Shown: positions 21,342-43,237 of the stretch, piece by piece
Layout of the letters: every line of letters starts with the position of its first letter
Position numbering within the stretch: the stretch's first letter is position 1
DNA from: an uncultured Opitutia bacterium
GTDB lineage: Bacteria; Verrucomicrobiota; Verrucomicrobiia; Opitutales; UBA953
Length of the DNA stretch: 56,854 bases
Reading direction: 5' to 3'
NCBI GenBank assembly: GCA_903860195.1
Contig: CAIOPO010000017.1
Location: forward strand, 1-56,854
Position numbers and translations under genes: made by a program
Notes under the pieces: model-generated
What the model saw: only the letters and a program-made list of their open reading frames with translations
Databases searched by the model: none
What the model was told of the DNA's origin: nothing

Positions 21342-22411
21342 AGAACCTACTCCTCCCGGCCCTGCTCATCCTGGCCGCCACCTCGGCCGCCCAGCTCAAG
21401 CCGCCGACCCTTGAGGAAGCGGCCGCCCGGCGCTGGTCCGAGATGAACTCCGACCGCATCGCGGGCACCGCCGACGGCCAGGGCATCACGATGTCCGACG
21501 TCCGCCGCCAGATCGAGCCCGTCATCGGACAGATCCGTTCGGCCGTCCGCAGCGACGCCGAGTTCGAGCGCACGGTCAAGCAGGCCGCGGACGAGATCCT
21601 GCGCAACATGGCCGACCGTCAGATCGTCCTGGCGGAATTCAGGTCGGGCACGGGACAGCTGCCCTCCAGCTACGTGGACGCCGACATCGAGGAGACCGTG
21701 CGGCGCGACTTCGGCGGAGACCGCTCCCGGTACGTGAGCTCGCTCCGGGCGGCCGGCATGACGCCCCTCTCCCACCGCAAGCTCATCGAGGACCGCATCA
21801 TCTTCGACTACATGGTGGGCCAGGTGCGCCGCTCCGCCATGACGGTCTCGCCCGGCAAGCTCTCCGCCTACTACGAGGCCCACCGACCGGAGTTCGAACG
21901 CAAGGAACAGGTGAAGCTCGGCCAGATCACCGTCGCCCAGGGCGCGGCTGAGACCTTGGCCGAAGCCAAGGCGCGGGCGGACGGCTGGGCCGCCTCGCTG
22001 CGCTCTCCCGCCGCGATCAAGGAGGCCTTCACCAAGGCCGGCCTCCGCCTTCCGGCTTCGGAGCCCGGCTTCGAGGACGTGGCGAAGGCGGTCAGCACCG
22101 ACGACTACGCCGCCAAAGGCGGCGACGCCGGCTGGCGGAACCTGACCGACCTCAATGAGCGCGTGGCCGGCGTGCTGCGCGGCCTCAAGGACGGAGAGAC
22201 GTCGACGCCGCTCCAGTTCGACCTTCCGGGCGGCCGCGCCGTCTGGTTCATCGTCCGCCGCGGCGGCTACCGCCCCCAGGGTTTCGCGACGCTGAAGGAC
22301 CCCGAGGTGCTCGCGCAGATCGAGGACAAGGTGCGCACGGCGAGCGTGCAGCAGGCCGTCAAGGAGTGGCTGGACGACCTGCGCGCGAAGCATCACGTTG
22401 AGTTCCGCTGA
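21338..22411 (+). CDS. SurA-like periplasmic peptidyl-prolyl isomerase/chaperone
   Basis: The 357-residue protein has a signal peptide (KNLLLPALLILAATSAAQ), a helical SurA-type N-terminal region (about 30-180), and a parvulin-like domain (about 185-300). The latter has EQVKLGQITV and the typical GGDAGWRNLTDLNERVAGVL followed by LKDGETSTPLQF. SurA-like proteins chaperone outer-membrane proteins through the periplasm, in keeping with a Gram-negative envelope. The ATG overlaps the mfd stop (ATGA), giving translational coupling with an unrelated function. Isomerase activity is not certain from sequence alone. Confidence 0.85.
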   Translation: MKNLLLPALLILAATSAAQLKPPTLEEAAARRWSEMNSDRIAGTADGQGITMSDVRRQIEPVIGQIRSAVRSDAEFERTVKQAADEILRNMADRQIVLAEFRSGTGQLPSSYVDADIEETVRRDFGGDRSRYVSSLRAAGMTPLSHRKLIEDRIIFDYMVGQVRRSAMTVSPGKLSAYYEAHRPEFERKEQVKLGQITVAQGAAETLAEAKARADGWAASLRSPAAIKEAFTKAGLRLPASEPGFEDVAKAVSTDDYAAKGGDAGWRNLTDLNERVAGVLRGLKDGETSTPLQFDLPGGRAVWFIVRRGGYRPQGFATLKDPEVLAQIEDKVRTASVQQAVKEWLDDLRAKHHVEFR

Positions 22412-22412
22412 G

Positions 22413-23918
22413 ATGGCCCGGACTCCGGCGTCCGTCCCTGCGGGCAGCCGGAACGCCTTCCGTTGCCGGGCCTTCCCCGTGCGCTCGGCAGGCCTGCTGC
22501 TTCATCCCACCTCCCTCGCCGGCGAAGGCCCCGTCGGGTCGCTGGGGTCCGAAGCGCGCGCGTTCATCGACGTGCTGGCGGAAGCCGGGTTCGGCTGGTG
22601 GCAGGTCTGCCCCCTCGGACCGACCGGCTACGGCGACTCGCCGTATCAGGCGCTCTCGGTGTTCGCCGGCAATCCGTACCTGCTGGACCTGGAGGCGCTC
22701 AGGTCGGACGGACTGCTCACGTCGGCCGAGACGACCGCATTGGGCCGCGGGCGCGACGCCGACACCGATTACGGAAGACTGTGGGCCCAGCTGCGCCCCG
22801 CGCTGGACCTGGCCGCCGGCCGGGCGGCGACGGCGCTGCGCCATGACCGCGAGTTCGCCGCCTTCCGCGAGTCCCAGGACGCCTGGCTCGACGCCTGGTC
22901 GCGCTTCATGGCCTTGCGCGTGGCGCACGGCTTCCGCGCCCCCGCCGACTGGGACAGGGACGCGCGTCCCGATCCGGCGGAGGCCGAACGCGCCGCCGTC
23001 CTGCAGCACCTCTTCGCCCGCCAGTTCGCCTCGCTCCGCGCCTACGCCCTGAAGAAGGGCGTCCGCATCTTCGGCGACGAGCCCATCTACGTCTCCGCCG
23101 ACGGCTGCGACGCCTGGTCGCGACCCGGACTGTTCGACCTCGACGCGAACGGACGGCCTCGCGCCGTGGCCGGCGTGCCGCCCGACTACTTCTGCGCCGA
23201 CGGCCAGCTCTGGGGCAATCCGCTCTACCGCTGGGACCGTCACGCCGCCGACGGCTTCGCCTGGTGGCGTGCGCGCGTGCGGCACGACCTCGGCCGCTTC
23301 GACGCCGTGCGCATCGACCATTTCCGCGGCCTGCATGACTACTGGAGCGTGCCCGCCGGAGCGGCCGACGCCCGCGGCGGGGAGTGGCTGCAAGGGCCGG
23401 GGATGGAATTCATCCGCGCGATGGGGGACGCCCCCCTGGTCGCCGAAGACCTCGGCATGCTCTCGCCCGGAGTGGAGGAGCTGCGCAAGGAGGCGGGGCT
23501 CCCGGGCATGTCAGTCCTCCAGTTCGGATTCGGCGGAGCCAAGGCCGGCAATCCGCACCACCCTGAGAACGTGACCGCGGACCGTGTGGCCTACACCGGC
23601 ACGCATGACAACGACACCCTGCTGGGGTGGCTGGGCGCCGCCTCCGAGGAGGAGACCTCCGCCCTGCGCGAAGCCTTCGGCGGCGAGACGCCGTCCGTCG
23701 CGCGGCTGATCCATTCCGTCCTGGACTCGCCCGCGGTGGCGGCGTTCCTGCCCGTCCAGGACCTTCTCGGACTGGGTTCCGCCGCCCGCTTCAACTCCCC
23801 CGGCAGGCCCGACGGCAACTGGAAGTGGAGGATGACCGCGGAGGAGCGCGGACGGCTGGAATCGTCGGCGACGGACTGGCGCGGACTCCTGCTCCGGACG
23901 CGGCGGATCAGCGCGTGA
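22413..23918 (+). CDS. malQ: 4-alpha-glucanotransferase (amylomaltase)
   Basis: The 501-residue GH77 enzyme starts at ATG 22413, one base after the preceding stop. Family landmarks are GLLLHPTSLAGEGPVGSLG, CPLGPTGYGDSPYQ, the nucleophile in RIDHFRGLHDYW, the acid/base glutamate in LVAEDLGMLSPG and YTGTHDNDTLLGW. It transfers alpha-1,4-glucan chains in glycogen or maltodextrin metabolism in the cytoplasm. Its final 11 bases overlap the end of the convergent ettA gene. Confidence 0.94.
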   Translation: MARTPASVPAGSRNAFRCRAFPVRSAGLLLHPTSLAGEGPVGSLGSEARAFIDVLAEAGFGWWQVCPLGPTGYGDSPYQALSVFAGNPYLLDLEALRSDGLLTSAETTALGRGRDADTDYGRLWAQLRPALDLAAGRAATALRHDREFAAFRESQDAWLDAWSRFMALRVAHGFRAPADWDRDARPDPAEAERAAVLQHLFARQFASLRAYALKKGVRIFGDEPIYVSADGCDAWSRPGLFDLDANGRPRAVAGVPPDYFCADGQLWGNPLYRWDRHAADGFAWWRARVRHDLGRFDAVRIDHFRGLHDYWSVPAGAADARGGEWLQGPGMEFIRAMGDAPLVAEDLGMLSPGVEELRKEAGLPGMSVLQFGFGGAKAGNPHHPENVTADRVAYTGTHDNDTLLGWLGAASEEETSALREAFGGETPSVARLIHSVLDSPAVAAFLPVQDLLGLGSAARFNSPGRPDGNWKWRMTAEERGRLESSATDWRGLLLRTRRISA

Positions 23919-33055: not shown

Positions 33056-34045
33056 ATGAGAAGGACCCTGCTGATTCTGGGCTGCTGCATCCCGGGACTC
33101 CTCCCGGCCGAGACGGTCATGCTGCGCAAGGCGGGCAACCCGGCGGTGGTCACTTTTGAATACATCACCCAGGACGAGGAGACGGTCATGGTGAGGATCC
33201 CGGGGCGCGACGGCGTGCTGGTCTACCGCTGGGATGAGCTCGACCAGGACCATGCCAAGACCAACAACCCGCGACTCTGGGAAGAGCGGCTGCTGCTCAT
33301 CAAGCCCCCTGAATCGTCCGGGATGAAGAAGAAGGCCGAAGACGACGATCCTTTCGCCGCCGCGGCCAAGCCCAACACTCCTCAGGACCTCTCCCGCAAC
33401 CTGCAGGGCGAGCTCAGCGAAGGGCTCAAAGGCATTCCCGTGACCTCGGTGGCGGTCGCCTCCCGCGAATCCAACATCGACGAGCTGGTCTTCTGGCGCG
33501 TCTACGAGGAGCTGCGCAAGCTGAGCGGCCGGCCGGCGGGCTCCGAGCCCGAGATCGCCAAGGCGGCCGGCGACGACGGCGAAGAGCCTCAGTCCAAGAC
33601 GAGCGGCTCCGGCCAGTCCCAGTCGAAGTCCTCCTCCAAGTCAAAGGCCACCAGTTCCTCGCGCTCCCCGGCCCAGCTGGCTGAAATCCAGGCGCGGGCG
33701 GCCAAGGCCCGGGCGGACTTTGAAAACGACGTGCGCCCCTTCACCGGAACGGGCTACCTGAAGCTCCTGTCCGACGCCACGAAGGCCAGGTTCGCCTGGG
33801 CGATGCTGCGCCGGGCCTCCGACGACCGGCGGCAGATCATCGCCGCGCTGCGCAGGCAGGATGCGGCGGCCGCGGAACTGTCCGACCGGCTGCAGGACAA
33901 GACCGCCAAAGGGGACATCGCCGTCTTCCGCAAGGCCGTCACGACCTTGGCCGACAGTCTGGAGAAAGTGACCCGTGAGGCCACGGCCATGGAATCCGGC
34001 CTGACCGCCGAGGCCCAGGCGGTCCTCGCCCGACTCCCCCGCTGA
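33056..34045 (+). CDS. Secreted protein of unknown function with Ser/Lys-rich linker and coiled-coil C-terminus
   Basis: I do not recognise the family. The 329-residue product has a signal peptide (RTLLILGCCIPGLLPAE) and a small beta-rich N-terminal module (VTFEYITQDEETVMVRIPG). A charged stretch and a Ser/Lys/Gln low-complexity linker (about 180-200) lead to a helical, probably coiled-coil C-terminal half (about 200-329, with AQLAEIQARAAKARADFEND and RQIIAALRRQDAAAAEL). It is likely periplasmic or envelope-linked. A strong terminator follows. Coding bias matches its neighbours, so it is a real gene. Confidence 0.75.
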   Translation: MRRTLLILGCCIPGLLPAETVMLRKAGNPAVVTFEYITQDEETVMVRIPGRDGVLVYRWDELDQDHAKTNNPRLWEERLLLIKPPESSGMKKKAEDDDPFAAAAKPNTPQDLSRNLQGELSEGLKGIPVTSVAVASRESNIDELVFWRVYEELRKLSGRPAGSEPEIAKAAGDDGEEPQSKTSGSGQSQSKSSSKSKATSSSRSPAQLAEIQARAAKARADFENDVRPFTGTGYLKLLSDATKARFAWAMLRRASDDRRQIIAALRRQDAAAAELSDRLQDKTAKGDIAVFRKAVTTLADSLEKVTREATAMESGLTAEAQAVLARLPR

Positions 34046-34098: not shown

Positions 34099-34174
<76 letters not shown>

Positions 34175-35334: not shown

Positions 35335-35419
35335 ACTGCTGATTAACAATGGTTTAAGGCAAAGTAAGTCGGACCATTATTTATAAACTTAACGCAACTA
35401 TTTTGCATTGAAAGGGCTT

Positions 35420-35459
35420 GGTGTTTTTCAGGCTAACCCCCGCTATGCTGAAAAACACC
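35420..35459. repeat. 12-bp perfect inverted repeat enclosing the lipoprotein start codon
   Basis: GGTGTTTTTCAG (35420-35431) and CTGAAAAACACC (35448-35459) are exact complements separated by 16 bases. The ATG at 35445-35447 lies at the end of that spacer. In mRNA this would form a hairpin with the start codon in the loop next to the 3' arm; in DNA it is an operator-like dyad. Confidence 0.8.
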
Positions 35460-35876
35460 CACCTCATCCTCCTCGCGGCCGCGCTGCTGTTCGGCTGCGC
35501 ACACGCCCAGAACGTCCGCACCACCGGCGAAATCGGAAGCGCCCGCCTGCAAGGCCGTAGCTTCACCATCGACGGCGACTCAGGCGCGGCCGGACAAGTC
35601 GCGGAAGCCCTGAAGTCCGCCGGCATGAAGCAGGGCGAAAAAGGGCGCGCCGACTTCATCATGACCGTCGCGCGTGAAGAGCGTCCGGTCACGCGGCGCC
35701 TTCACACTGGCGGCAAGAACGGCGTGGCCTACGACCGTACGACCAACGGTCCGGTCCTGACCCTCACCGTGACGGCCGCGTCCTCCCCTGCCGTCCCCAT
35801 CTTCACCGCGACGGCTGAAAATGAGGACGTCGGAGCCTTCGCCTCGGCCGCAGTCGCGGCGATGAAGCGCGAATGA
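35445..35876 (+). CDS. Small lipoprotein of unknown function
   Basis: I do not recognise the family. The 143-residue product has a lipoprotein signal (KNTHLILLAAALLFGCAHA) with lipobox LFGC and acylated Cys18. The mature part is a small alpha/beta domain with SFTIDGDSGAAGQVAEALKS and ADFIMTVAREERP, and it ends with FASAAVAAMKRE. It is probably anchored to a membrane leaflet facing the periplasm. It is preceded by an AT-rich intergenic stretch, unlike its GC-rich surroundings, and its start codon sits in a 12-bp inverted repeat, so its expression may be tightly controlled. Confidence 0.78.
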   Translation: MLKNTHLILLAAALLFGCAHAQNVRTTGEIGSARLQGRSFTIDGDSGAAGQVAEALKSAGMKQGEKGRADFIMTVAREERPVTRRLHTGGKNGVAYDRTTNGPVLTLTVTAASSPAVPIFTATAENEDVGAFASAAVAAMKRE

Positions 35877-35884
35877 GCGGACGT

Positions 35885-35920
35885 CAGGGTCCGGCGGCCC
35901 TTCAGGGCAGCCGGGCCCTG
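35885..35920. repeat. Long hairpin between convergent lipoprotein and NuoM-like genes
   Basis: An 11-base outer stem (35885-35895 with 35910-35920, one G-U) and a four-base inner stem (GCCC TTCA GGGC). It overlaps the last codons of the NuoM-like gene. There is no T run on either side, so it could be a weak bidirectional terminator or an mRNA 3'-end stabiliser. Confidence 0.5.
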
Positions 35921-37245
35921 GGCGCCAGCAGCCTCTCGGCGAGCTCATGCCTCGCCTCCACCACCGAGGGACTGAACCATCCGGCGAAGATCACGGCGAC
36001 CAGGATGAGCACGATGCCGACCCTTTCGCGCGAGGTCTCGCGCAAGGAGACCGAGGTGGCGGGGCGCTTACCGGTGAAGAAGGCGAAGTAGGCGCGGAGC
36101 ATCGAGACCCCGTTCAGCAACGCGACGGCGGCCAGCAGGCCGCAGGCCCAGAGTCCATGCTGGAAACTTCCGCTGATCAGCAGCTCCATCGGGACGAAGC
36201 CGACCGTGCCCGGAAAGCCCACGACGCCGAGGCCGGAGACGAGGAAGACCAGGGCCAGGCCCGGCACTTGGTCATAATGCCCATGATGTTCGGCGAGAGA
36301 CAGCCGGCCGAAACGGGATTCGAGCGCCCGCAGCGAATACCCGAGACCGGCCAGACAGAGCACCACCGGACCCCAGAGGCACAGCGAAGCGGTCAAGCCC
36401 GACAACGTGCCCGAGAGGACGCCGAACATGACGAGTGAAGTCTTGCTCAGCGCCAGGAAGGCGAAGAAGCGCCGGGCGTCGGCCTGCACGACCGCCATGC
36501 CGGAGGCATAAATGGCCGTGGCCATGCAGGCCCAGGAGCCGGACTCGAGCATCCAGGCGGGGGCGGAAGGCAGCACCAGGCGGACGGTCGCCACCACCTC
36601 CACCATCGGCAGCACGAAGAGCGAAGCCGCCGCGAAACTGGCGCGCTGAAAGAGGGACGGCATCCAGCCGTGCAGGGGGAAGATGCCTCCGCAAAGCTTG
36701 AGGGCGAGGAGCAGGAGCCCGACCGTCCAGACCTGACCGACGTCCTGGCGGACCAGCCATCCGGAGGCGAGCAGCAGGATAAACGGAGTGAAATAGAGAA
36801 GGAATACCCGGGCGGGCCGGCCACCCGACAGCAGATCCCAGGCCGGGAGCAAGGAGAACAGGGCCATCGTGCCGATGAGCATTCCGCCGTCGACGCAGCA
36901 GAAGAGCAGCGGCGTGAGCACGGAAGAAAGGAGAACGCGCACGCAGCCGGTCCGCGTGACGTCGGACTTGGCCGTGCCGAGCAGCGTGAGGAGATGGAGG
37001 AACGCCAGCACGGGGACCATCGGGGCCGCCAGCGCGTCCACGGACACCGTGCCGACCCCGGGCAGCTGGGAATCCTTGCCGGCATGCGTCAGCCAGACGC
37101 CGAGGGCCGCCGCCGTCTGGGCCCACAGCGCGGTCAGGGTCCGCGAAGCGAAGGACTCCGCGCCCTGGGCCTTCAGGAGGCTGACTGCCCCGGCCAGCGG
37201 CAGGGCCAGCACGAGCAGAAGCCACTGTCCGGATTCGACGCTCAT
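35902..37245 (-). CDS. Second proton-translocating antiporter-like subunit (NuoM/NuoN type) of the Dab operon
   Basis: The 447-residue, strongly hydrophobic protein of the complex I/Mrp antiporter family (PF00361) has about 12-14 membrane segments. The broken-helix lysine region reads LLALKLCGGIFPLHGWMPSL, and the second-half motif is VVQADARRFFAFLALSKTSL. The first-half glutamate of the WE motif appears replaced by aspartate (PAWDLLSGG). It overlaps dabB by four bases (ATGA) and ends the sulP-dabA-dabB transcript. The described Dab systems have one such subunit, so this may be an extra ion-conducting subunit or a partner for a shortened DabB. No nuo genes are nearby. Confidence 0.85.
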   Translation of the reverse strand: MSVESGQWLLLVLALPLAGAVSLLKAQGAESFASRTLTALWAQTAAALGVWLTHAGKDSQLPGVGTVSVDALAAPMVPVLAFLHLLTLLGTAKSDVTRTGCVRVLLSSVLTPLLFCCVDGGMLIGTMALFSLLPAWDLLSGGRPARVFLLYFTPFILLLASGWLVRQDVGQVWTVGLLLLALKLCGGIFPLHGWMPSLFQRASFAAASLFVLPMVEVVATVRLVLPSAPAWMLESGSWACMATAIYASGMAVVQADARRFFAFLALSKTSLVMFGVLSGTLSGLTASLCLWGPVVLCLAGLGYSLRALESRFGRLSLAEHHGHYDQVPGLALVFLVSGLGVVGFPGTVGFVPMELLISGSFQHGLWACGLLAAVALLNGVSMLRAYFAFFTGKRPATSVSLRETSRERVGIVLILVAVIFAGWFSPSVVEARHELAERLLAPRARLP

Positions 37246-38594
37246 CGGTCATCTGTCCTACCGGACCGTCCCTCCAGAAAACCGGACCATGCGCGCTCAC
37301 GGGCGTCAAACCAGCGGAACAAGGCCAGGAAGGGCCGGGCCACGAGCCGGTCCAGCAGGGCGTCCAGATGTCCGCGCTCGATCGAGAAACGGTAAAGTCG
37401 GTGGCGGAGTCCCTCGGGCAGACGGTCCTCCCAGCCCGGCCGCTCGGGCGCGGGGCGTTCGCCAATCGCGTCTTCGAGCTGGTGATGGTCGTGCAGCAGG
37501 CTGGGGGCGCGGAGGAACTGCAGCGTGCGGAGACAGGCGTGTCCGAGCAGGTGGATCAGGGCCAGCCACCTGAGGCCGAGTCCGATTTCGGCGATGATCA
37601 GTCCGACCTGCGTCAAGGAGGCGAAGGCCAGGGCCGACTTGATGTCGGTCTGGACGCGGCCCGAAAGGAAGGCGACCGCGGAGGTCACGAGCCCCAGGCC
37701 CACGACCAGCGCGGAAAGCCAGGGGGCGCTGTCGAGGATCGGACTCACGCGCAGCAGGAGGAACGCCCCGAGGTGCACGGACAGCGCCCCGTAGAAGATG
37801 GCGCTCGACGGCGTGGGCCCCTCCATCGCGCGCGGGAGCCAGCCCGAGAACGGGGCCAGCGCGGACTTGCCGGCGGCGGCCAGCACGAAGAGCACGCCCA
37901 GCAGCGCGAAATGGGGCCCGATGAGCAGGGGGTCGTGCTCCGGCCAGGCGTGCCTTCCCACGATGTGGTCGAAGTCTCCGGCGCCGTTGAGCTCGTGCAT
38001 GACGATGGCGGCGAGCATGAGCGCGGCGTCGCCGAACCGGTAGACGATCCAGACGCGCAAGCCGTTGCGCGGCGGAGCCGGACGGTCCTGGAAGAAGGCG
38101 ATGAGGAGCACGGAGGAAAGGCCGACCATCTCCCAGCCCACGAAGAGCGTCTCACAGGTGTCGGCGAGCGAGGCCAGCAGCATCCCGAGCAGGAACACCG
38201 AGAAGAGCACGAAGAACCTGGCATACCCGCGTTCGCGGTGGAGGTAGCGGGTCGAGAAGGCGGCGATGACCGAGCAGAGGACGAACGTCAGGACCACGTA
38301 GGAGAGCGACAGGACGTCGAGGAGGAACTGGAACTTGAGATGGTAGTCCGCAGTGATGACCCAGTCACCGAGCTCGATGGCGTGCCACGGAGTGCCGGTG
38401 GCCAGCATGACCGCGCCGGCCGCAGAAGCCATGATCAGGCCGGACCATGCAACTCCCTGGATCAGTCCGCCGACCGTCCGCTCCGAGAGCGTGCGCCCCG
38501 CCAGCGCCGCGCCGAGGAAGGCGGCCAAAGGCACGAAAGGCGCGACCAGGACGGCGAGCCCGAGGAAAGTGAGGAGCTGTTCGGCGGCGGGCAC
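37242..38594 (-). CDS. dabB: Inorganic carbon transporter subunit DabB (NuoL-like)
   Basis: The 450-residue membrane protein is NuoL/antiporter-like. It has LFVGWEMVGLSSVLLIAFFQ (the glutamate of TM5), the lysine hairpin AAGKSALAPFSGWLPRAMEG followed by PTPSSAIFYGALSVHLGAF, and VQTDIKSALAFASLTQVGLI. The C-terminal part (about 370-450) is soluble and arginine-rich. DabB is thought to pass a cation down its gradient to drive DabA. It lies three bases after dabA and overlaps the NuoM-like gene. It is shorter than classical NuoL, which lends interest to the added third subunit. Assignment as DabB rests on the dabA neighbour. Confidence 0.88.
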   Translation of the reverse strand: MPAAEQLLTFLGLAVLVAPFVPLAAFLGAALAGRTLSERTVGGLIQGVAWSGLIMASAAGAVMLATGTPWHAIELGDWVITADYHLKFQFLLDVLSLSYVVLTFVLCSVIAAFSTRYLHRERGYARFFVLFSVFLLGMLLASLADTCETLFVGWEMVGLSSVLLIAFFQDRPAPPRNGLRVWIVYRFGDAALMLAAIVMHELNGAGDFDHIVGRHAWPEHDPLLIGPHFALLGVLFVLAAAGKSALAPFSGWLPRAMEGPTPSSAIFYGALSVHLGAFLLLRVSPILDSAPWLSALVVGLGLVTSAVAFLSGRVQTDIKSALAFASLTQVGLIIAEIGLGLRWLALIHLLGHACLRTLQFLRAPSLLHDHHQLEDAIGERPAPERPGWEDRLPEGLRHRLYRFSIERGHLDALLDRLVARPFLALFRWFDARERAWSGFLEGRSGRTDDR

Positions 38595-38597
38595 GGT

Positions 38598-41500
38598 TCA
38601 GGCGGCGGGTGGCTTGATTTCCGCGAATTCGAGATGGTCACGCCATCCGGCGTACCATTCACGGGAGGAGGCGGCCGCAGGCAGGGCGGCCACGGCGGGA
38701 CGATGGGGCTCGAAGGCGCCCTCCCGGTAGAGCGCGATCGCGCCCGTCGCGGGATCCATCACCGCGAGCTGCACCCACCGGTTGGCCACGGCCGCCCGGA
38801 CGGCCGGATTGGACCGCATCACGCCGAGCACCGCGTCCTGCGAAGCCTCGACGACGAAGAGGAGCCGGAGCGGCTCATGGATCTCGACCATCTGCCAGGG
38901 CAGTCCGGTGCGAAGGTCGCTCTGGGCGCCGTCCATCACCCCGAGGAGACCGGTGATGTTGTGGGGCAGCTTGGAGCCCGAACCCCATCCGGGCGAGTCG
39001 ACGTAGGAGAAATAGTACTCGAGGTTGATGCCGGAGCACACCGGCACGACCGCCCCGAGGATCCGTGAGAGCACCGGGACGCCCTCGGAGTCGCAGTCCG
39101 GGTCGTAGGAGACGAGGAAGGCCCGCCGGTCGAGGAAAAGGCCGCGGGTGCGGTCCCGTCTGCCGACGACGCAGACCGCGTTGGTGGCGTGACCCCACTC
39201 CGGCCTGACCTGCGAGAGGTCCTCCGCCCGCGCCTCCATGTGCCGCTTGGCCTCGTCGTGGTCCAGGCCGAGGGAGGCGGAGCCGAAGCGGCGGGCGCGC
39301 TCATGGGCGTTGCGGCGCGCGGCCTCCTCCACCGCGGCGCGGGCGGCGTCGAACTCCTGCCGCAGCGAGGACGGCACGCGGTCGGTGTCATAGAAGGCGA
39401 AGTCGTCCGAGGAGGTGTTGTGCATGCCGCCGACGAAGACGGTGTCCTCGGGCACCGTGAATCCTTTGGCGCGCAAGCCCGACCGGACCCTCGGGTCATT
39501 GAGGATCTCGGCGGCGGCGCGCGCGTTGGGGCCCCCTCTGCCGCCGCCGCAGGCGCCGCAGTCATGGGCGGACTCATGCGGGTTGTTCATGCTCGTGGAT
39601 CCGTGGCCGAAGATCAGCACCAGCCGGGCGAACTCGGAGCGCAGGCCGAGGTCGCCGAGCAGGCGTTCGGCGATGGCGAGCCTTTCGGCGCAGCTGAAGC
39701 CATGTCCGTCCTCGTGCGGCGAAGGCGCTTCGCCCGTCCGCTCCAGCTGCAGCCGCGTGGCGGGCGGAGGCTCGATGAACCGCCCGAAGGAGGATCGAAC
39801 CTTGGCGCTGAGCCGGGGGAACAGGACCTGCATGACGAGCGGCACGGTGGCGAGCAGGCCCAGCGCGGCCGAAAAGAAGGCGCCGCCGACCATGCGCCTG
39901 CTGCCGCCGTGGAAACCGCGCAAGGCCATCCCGAGCCGCCGACGGTGCGCCCGGCGGCGGTCGGCCTCCCGCTCCTGGCTCCGTTCGACGCGTTCCGAGA
40001 CCCAGTGCGCGGGGCGCACCACGACGGGACAGAGCGGGACGAAATCCGCCGCCGCGGCCCCGCGGTAGTACATCACGACTCCGAAGAAGCCCGCCGCGCC
40101 GAACGTCTCGCACGCCGGGGCGACCTCCTCGAGATGCCGACGCACCGACTCCTCGCGCTCATCGATGCAGAACACGGCCTGGAAGGAGGGGCGTCCGCTC
40201 CGGGCGGACCGACGCGCGGCCGAAAGGGCGAGCGCGTCCAAGGTCTGGACCCGGAAGCGATGCTCATAGGCGAGATGGAAGATGCGCCGGCGCTCAAAGG
40301 AGGAGAAGCCCTCGATCTCGAGGAGAAGCGCCGTCCAGCCGGACGGGCTCAGACGGAACAGCGACTCAGGTGCCCAGCCCAGCACCTGGGCGAGCTGGAA
40401 GACCAGGAAGGCCCGCTGCTTGTCGCGGTCCTCGGGCGCGGCGCTGCGCATCAGCCAGAGCTCGTCGCGCAGCTCGGTGAGCGGCAGGTCGAGGCCGAGC
40501 GAATCCCGCGCTACGGCCCGCAGGGCCAGCCGCTCGAGCAGCAACCGCACCGCGAGGAACTCGACCAACGTGCCGGGAGGGACCGGACGATGAACCCGGT
40601 CGGAGCGCTGCTCGACATGCCAAAGCATCCCGGCCCAGCCCTTGAGGGCCAGCAACGAAGCCGCCACGAAGGCCTCCGTCTCCTCTTCCTGGACGCCGAG
40701 GGCGGCCAGCGAGTCGCCGAGGGATTCCTCGGGCGAAAGCCCGCGCCGTTCGATGTCGCGCAGGATCGGCCCGAGGTCCGCGGACCACCATGCGGCTGAG
40801 CCGCGTCCGTCGGCGTAGAGGCGGCAGAAGGACTTGAAGAACCCTTCGTCACGGCGGGGGAGTTCGGCGTGCGCGATGCCCTGGTCGAGGAACGCGCCGC
40901 AGAATCTGACGAGATGCTCATGGACGAGCAGGTCGCTGTCCGCGCCGCCGGCGGCGAGCAGCCGGTCGCGATGCCGGAGGGGCGGCTCGTTCACATGCAC
41001 GCGCTCCGCCGCGCGGGACACGCCCGCGACGCAGACCTCCCAGAGCACGGCGAGGGAGAAGGACTCCCAGCGGGCGTCGTCCCACTCCTCCATGCGTCCT
41101 TCCTGGAAACGTCGGAAAAGGCGGGCCGCCCACTCGGGAGCGGCCTGTTCCGGAGCGGAGCTCCTGAGGCGGCACATGACCCAGTGGCGCGTCGCCGTCA
41201 CCAGTCGGCGTCGGGAGACTTCGGAGACGTCGGGCCGCGCGCGGTCAAGAGCGTCGCTTTCCGCCATGAGCCAGTCCAGCTCAGGCCCCTCCCCCATCCG
41301 CAGCGGGTGCTCCAGCATGGCGAGCCTCAGTTCCCACCGGGTCGAAAGCCCCTGGAGCGTCTCATCGGAGCGGCGCCCGAGGTCCTGGCGCAGCACTTCA
41401 CGGAGTTCGGAAAAAAGGATGCGTCCTCGCCGCAGCTCCTCGCGATAACGGTCCTCGGCGAGGAAAGGCTCGCAACCGAAGACCTGCGCCCCCTTCCGGA

Positions 41501-41666
41501 CGGCGTCGTCAAAAGTCAGATTCTCAAAGGCATGAAGGGTGTTGTGGTGGATGAACACCCCGATGGGACCTTGGGCGGGCAGCAGGTGGGCGGCGCGGGC
41601 GACCGCTTCGCGGATCCGGGCGGCATGGCCCTTGGGCGGGCGGACGGACGGATCGGAGCCGGACAT
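38598..41666 (-). CDS. dabA: Inorganic carbon transporter subunit DabA (UPF0753/DUF2309)
   Basis: The 1,022-residue protein is a full-length DabA. The carbonic-anhydrase-like zinc site can be placed: Cys500 and Asp502 in QAVFCIDEREESVRRHLEE, His688 in LIFGHGSTSMNNPHESAHD and Cys703 in DCGACGGGRGG. The His-Cys spacing of 15 equals that recalled for the characterised Halothiobacillus DabA2 (H524, C539). The N-terminal HHNTLHAFENLTF is also a family hallmark. DabA converts CO2 to bicarbonate on the cytoplasmic face when coupled to DabB. It starts two bases after sulP and is followed by dabB, forming one operon. Confidence 0.95.
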   Translation of the reverse strand: MSGSDPSVRPPKGHAARIREAVARAAHLLPAQGPIGVFIHHNTLHAFENLTFDDAVRKGAQVFGCEPFLAEDRYREELRRGRILFSELREVLRQDLGRRSDETLQGLSTRWELRLAMLEHPLRMGEGPELDWLMAESDALDRARPDVSEVSRRRLVTATRHWVMCRLRSSAPEQAAPEWAARLFRRFQEGRMEEWDDARWESFSLAVLWEVCVAGVSRAAERVHVNEPPLRHRDRLLAAGGADSDLLVHEHLVRFCGAFLDQGIAHAELPRRDEGFFKSFCRLYADGRGSAAWWSADLGPILRDIERRGLSPEESLGDSLAALGVQEEETEAFVAASLLALKGWAGMLWHVEQRSDRVHRPVPPGTLVEFLAVRLLLERLALRAVARDSLGLDLPLTELRDELWLMRSAAPEDRDKQRAFLVFQLAQVLGWAPESLFRLSPSGWTALLLEIEGFSSFERRRIFHLAYEHRFRVQTLDALALSAARRSARSGRPSFQAVFCIDEREESVRRHLEEVAPACETFGAAGFFGVVMYYRGAAAADFVPLCPVVVRPAHWVSERVERSQEREADRRRAHRRRLGMALRGFHGGSRRMVGGAFFSAALGLLATVPLVMQVLFPRLSAKVRSSFGRFIEPPPATRLQLERTGEAPSPHEDGHGFSCAERLAIAERLLGDLGLRSEFARLVLIFGHGSTSMNNPHESAHDCGACGGGRGGPNARAAAEILNDPRVRSGLRAKGFTVPEDTVFVGGMHNTSSDDFAFYDTDRVPSSLRQEFDAARAAVEEAARRNAHERARRFGSASLGLDHDEAKRHMEARAEDLSQVRPEWGHATNAVCVVGRRDRTRGLFLDRRAFLVSYDPDCDSEGVPVLSRILGAVVPVCSGINLEYYFSYVDSPGWGSGSKLPHNITGLLGVMDGAQSDLRTGLPWQMVEIHEPLRLLFVVEASQDAVLGVMRSNPAVRAAVANRWVQLAVMDPATGAIALYREGAFEPHRPAVAALPAAASSREWYAGWRDHLEFAEIKPPAA

Positions 41667-41667
41667 T

Positions 41668-43140
41668 TCAGGCGGACTTCCCGCCGACCGTCCTGCAGGA
41701 CCTCGGCCGCCCTTCGGCGGCGGGCTTGTACCACTCCTCGCCGGATTCCTCGATGCAGACCTTGCCGCCCGTACGACCGTGGTTCTGGGCCCAGCTCTGG
41801 ATCGCCTCGAAGGCGGCGTGGTCGATGTAATCCACCGCCAGGTCGACCTCGACCGAGGAGCCGGCGGGGAGCTTGGCGAGCTCGGCGCTCAGCCGCGGGA
41901 CGGTGGCGAAGGTGAGCGTGCCGCGGATCTGGACCGCCTGGACGCCGCCCCTCTCGGTGACGACCACCTGGCAGAGCGAGAGCCTGCGCAGGGCGAAGAA
42001 GACGGAGACGGCCACTCCCAGGCCGACGCCGGCGAGGAGGTTGATGCAGGTCACGCCGATGACCGTGACCCAGTAGATCTTGACCTCGTTGTGGACGGTC
42101 AGGTCGCGGATGTGATGGAAGTTGACGAGATTGACCCCGACGTGCACCAGCAGGCCGGCGAGCACGGCCAGCGGAATGGCCTCGATGTAGCCGGAAAGCA
42201 GGAGCACGCTGAGCACCACCCAGACGCCGTGCAGGACAGCGGACCAGCGGGAGGCGGCGTTGGCGGCGATGTTGGCGGAGGAGCGGACGATGACGCCCGT
42301 GACGGGCAGGCCGCCGAGCAGGCCCGAGACCAGGTTGCCGGCGCCCTGGGCGGAGAGCTCCTTGTCCAGGTCGCAGCGCGCCCCGGAATGCAGCTTGTCC
42401 GTCGCCACCGCGCAGAGGAGCGACTCGACGCTGGCGATGACGGCCAGAGTGAGCACGGCGACGATGAACACGCCCCAGTCGGCGGGCAGCTTGAGCTGGG
42501 TGAACGCGAGCGCGTCGGGAAGGTCGACGCGCTTGACGTCCATCTTCACCAGCAGGGACAGCGCGGTGCCCAGCAGGACGGCGACCAGGGCTCCGGGCAC
42601 GGAACGCACGGCGGGCCAGGGAATCCGCTTCCACAGGACGAGCACGGCGATGGTGACCACGCCGAGGATGGCGGCGTCGACGTTCATGCCGCCGAGCTTG
42701 GAGGGCAGCGCGATCAGGTTGCGAAGAGGCGAACTGTCCGGCGAGCCGCCGATCATGACGTGCAGCTGCGCGAGGGCGATGGAGATCCCGATGCCGGCCA
42801 GCATGCCGTGGACCACGGAGGGAGCGATGAGCAGCGCGCCTCGGGCGACCTTGAACCAGCCGAGAAGGAGCTGGACGGCGCCGGCGCAGGCGGTGGCCAC
42901 GCACATGACCTCCCAGCCGAGCTGCTGAACCATGCCGAAGACGACGACGGTCAGGCCCGCCGCCGGGCCGGAGACCTGCAACGGCGCGCCGGCCAGGAGT
43001 CCGGTGACGATGCCGCCGGCGGCCGCCCCGATCAGACCGGCGATGATGGGTGCGCCCGAAGCGAGGGCGATGCCGAGCGAGAGCGGCACGGCCACGAGGA
43101 AAACCACGATGGATGCGGGGAGGTCTCGGCGGAGATTCAT
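41668..43140 (-). CDS. SulP-family anion (probable bicarbonate) transporter with STAS domain
   Basis: The product is 490 residues from ATG 43140 (alternative ATG 43164). The start is chosen because NLRRDLPASIVVFLVAVPLS is the usual N-terminus. The SulP core has LSLGIALASGAPIIAGLIG, SGPAAGLTVVVFG and GLLGGLPVTGVIVRSSANI. A C-terminal STAS domain (about 395-470) has EVDLAVDYIDHAAFEAIQSW. SulP proteins move sulfate, bicarbonate or other anions with Na+ or H+. As the first gene of a run containing dabA and dabB, bicarbonate is the likely substrate here; that is inferred from context. Confidence 0.9.
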   Translation of the reverse strand: MNLRRDLPASIVVFLVAVPLSLGIALASGAPIIAGLIGAAAGGIVTGLLAGAPLQVSGPAAGLTVVVFGMVQQLGWEVMCVATACAGAVQLLLGWFKVARGALLIAPSVVHGMLAGIGISIALAQLHVMIGGSPDSSPLRNLIALPSKLGGMNVDAAILGVVTIAVLVLWKRIPWPAVRSVPGALVAVLLGTALSLLVKMDVKRVDLPDALAFTQLKLPADWGVFIVAVLTLAVIASVESLLCAVATDKLHSGARCDLDKELSAQGAGNLVSGLLGGLPVTGVIVRSSANIAANAASRWSAVLHGVWVVLSVLLLSGYIEAIPLAVLAGLLVHVGVNLVNFHHIRDLTVHNEVKIYWVTVIGVTCINLLAGVGLGVAVSVFFALRRLSLCQVVVTERGGVQAVQIRGTLTFATVPRLSAELAKLPAGSSVEVDLAVDYIDHAAFEAIQSWAQNHGRTGGKVCIEESGEEWYKPAAEGRPRSCRTVGGKSA

Positions 43141-43237
43141 GGGGGTGTGCCCCAAAATGAGCATGGGCGGCAGAAGTCAACGACACCTCCACCCCGCCCC
43201 GCAAATGCGACCCCGGCTTTGCAGGGCCGTCACACGG

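Follow-up and report, generated by a model that had tools for sequence, protein, structure and literature searches.

What might a second antiporter-like protein contribute to an operon that already encodes DabA and DabB, and what is a SulP-family anion transporter doing beside them? These questions are raised by four minus-strand genes on contig CAIOPO010000017.1 of an uncultured Opitutia bacterium (Verrucomicrobiota; GenBank assembly GCA_903860195.1). The stretch analysed – the window – is the whole contig of 56,854 nucleotides, one of 209 in a genome of 2.1 Mb. An earlier reading of the letters alone (the sequence-only reading) proposed that the operon joins two routes of bicarbonate accumulation, SulP and Dab, and that a NuoM-like protein is added to a shortened DabB in a heteromeric ion-driven module. 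Our data indicate that the operon belongs to a conserved subtype in which DabA, DabB and the NuoM-like protein differ in a coordinated manner from the classical DAB2 system. We propose, tentatively and at slightly less than even confidence, a DAB variant of three subunits in which the NuoM-like subunit would supply proton entry and SulP would be a separable partner.

A conserved operon subtype

The four genes (Table 1) form a tight operon. A single base separates SulP from dabA and three bases separate dabA from dabB, and dabB overlaps the NuoM-like gene (nuoM) by four, which confirms the close packing first noticed. The likelier start of SulP is at 43140, near which alignments to congeners begin, giving a protein of 490 amino acids. 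Neither Q-module genes nor genes for Mrp B, C, E, F or G were found beside the antiporter-like genes, either in the operon or among the flanking proteins scanned (an exonuclease, a GPx-like protein, DUF4190 and DUF423; 35418-35876 gave no Pfam match).

PF10070, the family matched by DabA, was found in 9 of 288 genomes of a phylum sample, in 1 of 55 genomes of the genus (the window's own) and in 30 of 245 genomes in the order of genome G651. The window's NuoM-like protein, used alone as query at E 1e-20, was matched in 3 of 384 genomes of the class; a profile at E 1e-25 found it in 2 of 387 genomes of the phylum and in 10 of the 245 in the order of G651.

The distribution of the NuoM-like gene follows gene order. 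Of the 30 PF10070 genomes from the order of G651, 26 have a readable gene order, seven being dabA-dabB and 19 dabB-dabA: the NuoM-like gene is present in all seven of the former and was unmatched at E 1e-25 in 18 of the latter. The last of the 19, G736, carries both a classical dabB-dabA pair and, on another contig, a NuoM-like gene of the subtype (contigs C651 and C620). Two members of the phylum sample, the window and G234, have the dabA-dabB order and a NuoM-like gene; the remaining seven loci are dabB-dabA, and the stretches retrieved for them gave no NuoM-like or SulP match at E 1e-3. The classical dabB-dabA type lacks the NuoM-like gene. The sequence-only reading was to be refuted if the gene were missing from most related Dab operons; because it occurs in all seven readable dabA-dabB genomes, this is not so within the subtype.

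The same four-gene order is seen in G651, G457 and SXSK01000256.1, to which SulP, DabA and DabB are 65-72% identical and the NuoM-like protein 51-58%, and also in G853 and G782. Elsewhere the arrangement varies: in G806 SulP and dabA-dabB share a contig and the NuoM-like gene lies on another, in G828 SulP is downstream, and in G871 and G234 the SulP gene is on the opposite strand. The operon of G892 (L070) appears to be in decay: SulP and DabB are truncated and DabA gave no match, while the NuoM-like gene is retained.

No plasmid match to the NuoM-like query was obtained at E 1e-5. DabA, used as query, matched 123 plasmid records, of which eight were viewed. Seven have dabB followed by dabA, and beside the pair the plasmid gene table, which is incomplete, lists neither a SulP nor a second antiporter-like gene; the record of the eighth (Sphingobium, L040) begins 1.4 kb before dabA. 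One further feature was seen on plasmid 1 of Nitrobacter hamburgensis (L044), where two DUF2309 genes are each followed by a P-II gene, an extra gene lies between dabB and the second dabA, and RuBisCO and a carboxysome shell gene adjoin.

Coordinated changes in DabA, DabB and the NuoM-like protein

The zinc site of DabA2 comprises Cys351, Asp353, Arg355, His524 and Cys539 (PMC13144422; this paper, PMC5700660 and PMC10880623 are cited throughout from extracts of their text). In an alignment to 9rd0_A the corresponding residues of the window's DabA are Cys500, Asp502, Arg504, His688 and Cys703. The sequence-only reading was therefore right about the four of these that it named, and its statement that the His-Cys spacing of 15 equals that of DabA2 is also correct. 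All five are kept in 45 of 45 DabA proteins compared.

The finger of DabA presents a different picture. Replacement of Glu444 by Ala or Gln abolished the activity of DAB2 (PMC13144422), and the 34 classical DabA proteins compared all have this residue, as against none of the 11 of the window's type; in the window the position is occupied by Ala600 (codon 39867-39869). The 11 fall together on one side of a long branch with support of 100/100. From the 30 PF10070 loci in the order of G651 the 45-row set omits two fragments (L110, L111) and six duplicates. A first count of the zinc site left out L028, L029 and L040; the DabA and DabB comparisons add L028 and L029, not L040. For L094 and L099, whose gene order was unread, DabA type was assigned by best match only. 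These two are also left out of the DabB comparison, because their stretches contain no DabB, whereas L066 and L070 are included in it.

DabB has changed in parallel, at four positions (DabB2 numbering). Ile151, a site occupied by Glu in NuoL, is Glu in 12 of 12 DabB proteins of the window's type and in none of 33 others (Glu155 in the window; codon 38130-38132). His260, found in 32 of the 33, is Tyr in all 12; Ser316 and Lys347, invariant in the 33, are Ala and Arg, respectively, in all 12. Lys310, His339 and His343 are kept in 12 of 12. Ala forms of Ser316 and Lys347 impaired DAB2 (PMC13144422).

That DabB is shortened was also borne out: its last membrane helices are absent. With a membrane-like segment defined as 19 residues of mean hydropathy of at least 1.4, the tail has none in the 10 full-length proteins of the window's type (G806 and G892, with incomplete tails, are not counted) as against three to five segments in 33 of 33 others. 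Read by eye, the difference may be an internal deletion with a C-terminal motif retained. The predicted model of DabB matches NuoL in a fold search; DabB2 (9rd0_B) is not among the best 50 fold matches listed for it, which excludes nothing.

These substitutions raise the possibility that the operon serves another reaction or another ion – a Na+/bicarbonate symporter of the kind proposed for MpsAB, or other zinc chemistry whose product SulP exchanges. Four residues of DAB2 (Glu444, His260, Ser316 and Lys347) are all changed, Na+ use has been proposed for MpsAB (PMC13144422), and a SulP gene adjoins wherever the loci can be read. We nonetheless consider such a function quite unlikely, given that the full zinc, Asp and Arg site is unbroken across the 45 proteins and that the Lys and two His residues of DabB are equally constant.

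The NuoM-like subunit has followed a course of its own. Its TM5 (transmembrane helix 5) Glu is lost in all 11 proteins compared and present in 17 of 17 NuoL/M/N-type relatives; its TM7 Lys is likewise lost in all 11 (Arg in 8) and present in 14 of 17. The column of the TM8 Lys, 0 of 11, says little because only 8 of the 17 relatives carry Lys there in the same alignment. In contrast to these losses, all 11 proteins retain an acid in the TM12 region, directly after the position of NuoM Glu407 (Glu354 in the window; codon 36184-36186). The C-terminal half is conserved, the N-terminal half degenerate and poorly so. The predicted model nevertheless has the full antiporter fold, with 6tjv_D, the NdhD of NDH-1MS, among its best structural matches. 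The extra subunit singled out by the sequence-only reading is thus a conserved part of the module and yet, because the TM5 Glu and TM7 Lys are lost, unlike a second complete antiporter.

It is here that two further explanations are best weighed. Were each membrane subunit a full channel moving an ion, more ions would be moved per turnover; two antiporter-like genes are indeed present, and the number of membrane subunits has been tied to the number of ions (PMC5700660). The residue pattern, with its missing TM5 Glu and TM7 Lys, seems to weigh against two complete channels, even granted the Arg that most of the proteins carry in TM7, and we regard this explanation as very unlikely. The same pattern would be compatible with a NuoM-like subunit that serves only as scaffold or lateral seal, stabilising the shortened DabB and carrying no proton, to which the poorly conserved and poorly modelled N-terminal half lends some weight. 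A pure scaffold would not, however, need the invariant TM12-region acid, and the parts in which DAB2 carries that acid are gone from DabA as well as from DabB; a purely structural role appears unlikely.

A putative route of proton entry

Where antiporter-like subunits lie side by side, TM4-8 of one subunit contact TM9-13 of its neighbour. On this pattern the NuoM-like protein would lie beside DabB as NuoM lies beside NuoL, its conserved C-terminal half facing TM4-8 of DabB. DabA would hydrate CO2 at the zinc site atop the NuoL-like DabB, forming a one-way carbonic anhydrase driven by the proton motive force. Protons would enter past Glu354 of the NuoM-like subunit, pass to the TM5/TM7 ion pairs of DabB (Glu155, Arg186, Asp189, Lys243) and continue along a path of Lys319, His348 and His352. 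This entry would replace that of DAB2, built from the DabA finger Glu444 and the last helices of DabB.

The proposal fits the joint pattern: DabB has a TM5 Glu and the NuoM-like subunit a TM12-region acid, in the lineage in which the finger acid of DabA and the last helices of DabB are gone. The TM5 Glu is, in complex I, part of the two ion pairs close to the interface between subunits (PMC13144422). The more specific suggestion that the essential proton-entry acid itself moved from the DabA finger to the NuoM-like subunit in this lineage is one that we judge possible and rather doubtful.

Several observations weigh against proton entry through the NuoM-like subunit. In each of the 11 proteins the conserved acid comes one residue after the site of NuoM Glu407; a single row also has Glu at the site itself, where generic relatives carry Glu or Lys. 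Because Ser316 and Lys347 of DabB are replaced throughout the subtype, the mechanism of DAB2 may not carry over. The loss of helices is narrowly drawn in one case, the DabB tail of G234 peaking at a hydropathy of 1.39, barely below the threshold. The alignments behind the structural models comprise seven rows, NuoL/M/N relatives among them, and in these models the N-terminal half of the NuoM-like protein and the DabB tail are of low confidence. All of the contrasts, moreover, fall on one long branch, and may go back to one event in evolution that was accompanied by hitch-hiking changes. Finally, no RuBisCO large subunit turned up in the genome, which is 85% complete, and any requirement to concentrate carbon is therefore unproven.

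The SulP partner

Where the contig is long enough to show it, which is so in 11 loci, a SulP gene always adjoins the module or its dabA (in one, G892, SulP is truncated); the contigs of G787 and G736 end too early to be counted. Together with the regular presence of the NuoM-like gene, this bears out the idea that dabA-dabB-nuoM is a conserved module and SulP its partner. The SulPs concerned fall into two lineages, 28-36% identical to each other, in three arrangements. Of the solved structures, 5da0 ('Sulphate transporter') and 6ki1 ('Low affinity sulfate transporter') come closest to the window's SulP; we take them to be SLC26Dg and BicA, respectively. The score of 147.5 bits for the window's SulP is below the cut-off of 880 bits for the NCBIfam BicA equivalog. 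The protein is probably a carrier of bicarbonate or of another anion; in our proposal it would be a separable partner of the Dab proteins, most likely carrying bicarbonate for the same need.

Separability is seen within the genus. Six congeners (G306, G292, G298, G301, G337 and G311; loci L071, L077, L078, L079, L080 and L081) have a SulP orthologue, 76-89% identical, in the same neighbourhood, slightly rearranged in some; in G301 the contig does not extend to the GPx side. Neither dabA, dabB nor nuoM was found in any of the six at E 1e-4, and a relaxed search gave nothing below E 0.39; a seventh congener with a SulP match, G315, was left out as partial and at a contig end. Because these genomes keep an intact SulP without the module, the two are separable. 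So, of the two routes said to be joined, SulP does adjoin the module, but membership of the same machine is not required. Decay of SulP in the congeners was considered and rejected, the single in-frame TGA in three of them being the ordinary C-terminal stop. Repeated loss of dabA-dabB-nuoM and a single insertion behind a SulP already in place both fit the pattern; SulP shows no donor-like 3′ end.

It is quite conceivable, if on balance doubtful, that SulP is a plain importer of sulfate or some other anion that merely shares a promoter. SulP proteins transport various compounds (PMC10880623), and the congeners show that the gene persists by itself in its neighbourhood. Harder to reconcile with such a role are the repeated association of two divergent SulP lineages with dabA-dabB-nuoM and the fusion of one module-linked SulP to a P-II domain.

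That fusion is in G828, where the SulP beside dabA-dabB-nuoM (L067:11508-13490) carries a C-terminal P-II signalling domain (PF00543), as might be expected of a regulated bicarbonate carrier. The window's own genome holds a second kind of SulP fusion, a protein of 755 amino acids joined to a beta-carbonic anhydrase (L112:1378-3642, G000:C160), and several congeners with open reading frames of similar length may carry the same.

Physiology and genomic setting

This fusion is the genome's one match to PF00484 (beta-carbonic anhydrase), the only class of carbonic anhydrase searched; PF00484 is matched in 47 of the 55 genomes of the genus, the window's own included. Supply of bicarbonate in a heterotroph would be the likeliest use of the operon, and its delivery to carboxylases is plausible. 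The suggested setting among polysaccharide-degradation genes proved thin: among 39 window proteins scanned against Pfam (a subset of the window's open reading frames that took in 33056-34045 and the four operon proteins, several without a match) the only glucan-acting protein is a 4-alpha-glucanotransferase some 12 kb from the operon, and no other matched protein resembles a polysaccharide degrader.

Contamination was rejected because ClpC, adjoining the operon, is 94% identical to that of congener G292 and 97% to that of G306. There is also no sign of a compositional island, the GC content of the operon being 0.695 and that of its flanks 0.695 and 0.688; at third codon positions it is 0.87-0.93 in the operon and 0.80-0.96 in neighbouring genes. 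A tRNA gene lies near the downstream flank.

Table 1. Position and nature of the operon genes and of two other features in the window.
Feature	Position	Strand	Support
SulP-family anion transporter, weak STAS match	41668-43164	minus	Sulfate_transp PF00916, 220.6 bits
DabA, zinc carbonic-anhydrase-like cytoplasmic subunit, 1022 amino acids	38598-41666	minus	PF10070, 804.4 bits, full model
DabB, NuoL-like, 450 amino acids, GTG start	37242-38594	minus	Proton_antipo_M and Proton_antipo_N
NuoM/MrpD-like third subunit, 447 amino acids	35902-37245	minus	Proton_antipo_M, 46.7 bits, residues 165-371
tRNA-Ala (ggc)	34099-34174
4-alpha-glucanotransferase (GH77)	22398-23918		Pfam, 456.4 bits

Comparison with known systems

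The sequence-only reading took Dab systems to be known solely as DabA with one DabB. This does not stand, since the gene set was printed in 2017: Klimchuk et al. (PMC5700660) describe ybcC (DUF2309, now DabA) upstream of a nuoL homologue, with COG0659 (SulP) and COG1008 (NuoM) often nearby. Their 'clade C' clusters of COG3002/YbcC have the same gene content and dabA-dabB order as the window, while the extract of their account draws no link to CO2, gives no residue-level mechanism and guesses at an exergonic enzyme that exports ions. In the literature searched, largely at the level of listings, we recognised no later treatment of the dabA-dabB-nuoM subtype and found no earlier description of the coordinated residue and helix changes. 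What is added here is the set of differences from DAB2 in DabA, DabB and the NuoM-like subunit.

DAB2 of Halothiobacillus neapolitanus (PDB 9rd0) has in common with the window a PF10070 subunit, identical in its zinc, Asp and Arg site, and a NuoL-like DabB with Lys310, His339 and His343. It differs in having two subunits, the finger Glu444 (Ala600 in the window) and a 15-helix DabB that lacks the TM5 Glu; no NuoM-like or SulP partner is described in the extract (PMC13144422). A third gene is itself not peculiar to the window. DAB1 of H. neapolitanus has one, encoding a small transmembrane protein that is not antiporter-like (PMC13144422), and MpsABC of Staphylococcus aureus is, in the extracts, likewise a Dab-type system with a third gene. 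The structure of DAB2 does not settle how the hydration of CO2 is coupled to proton flow, and a natural subtype without Glu444, with its zinc site intact and with an extra subunit amounts to a ready experiment on that coupling. It bears, too, on sideways proton transfer between complex I subunits, in a system without electron transfer.

A further parallel is with cyanobacterial NDH-1MS, whose NdhD (6tjv_D) the model of the NuoM-like subunit resembles in structure. We take NDH-1MS to combine a carbonic-anhydrase-like subunit with NdhF3 and NdhD3, that is, to hydrate CO2 over a NuoL-like subunit beside a NuoM-like one. NDH-1MS couples ferredoxin oxidation to CO2 hydration (PMC13144422), whereas the window's operon has no redox-arm genes. 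If the essential entry acid has indeed moved to the NuoM-like subunit, proton entry in the operon's product would be lateral rather than distal, and the product itself would be a minimal NuoL-NuoM pair with a carbonic anhydrase and no redox arm: a proton-driven counterpart of NDH-1MS.

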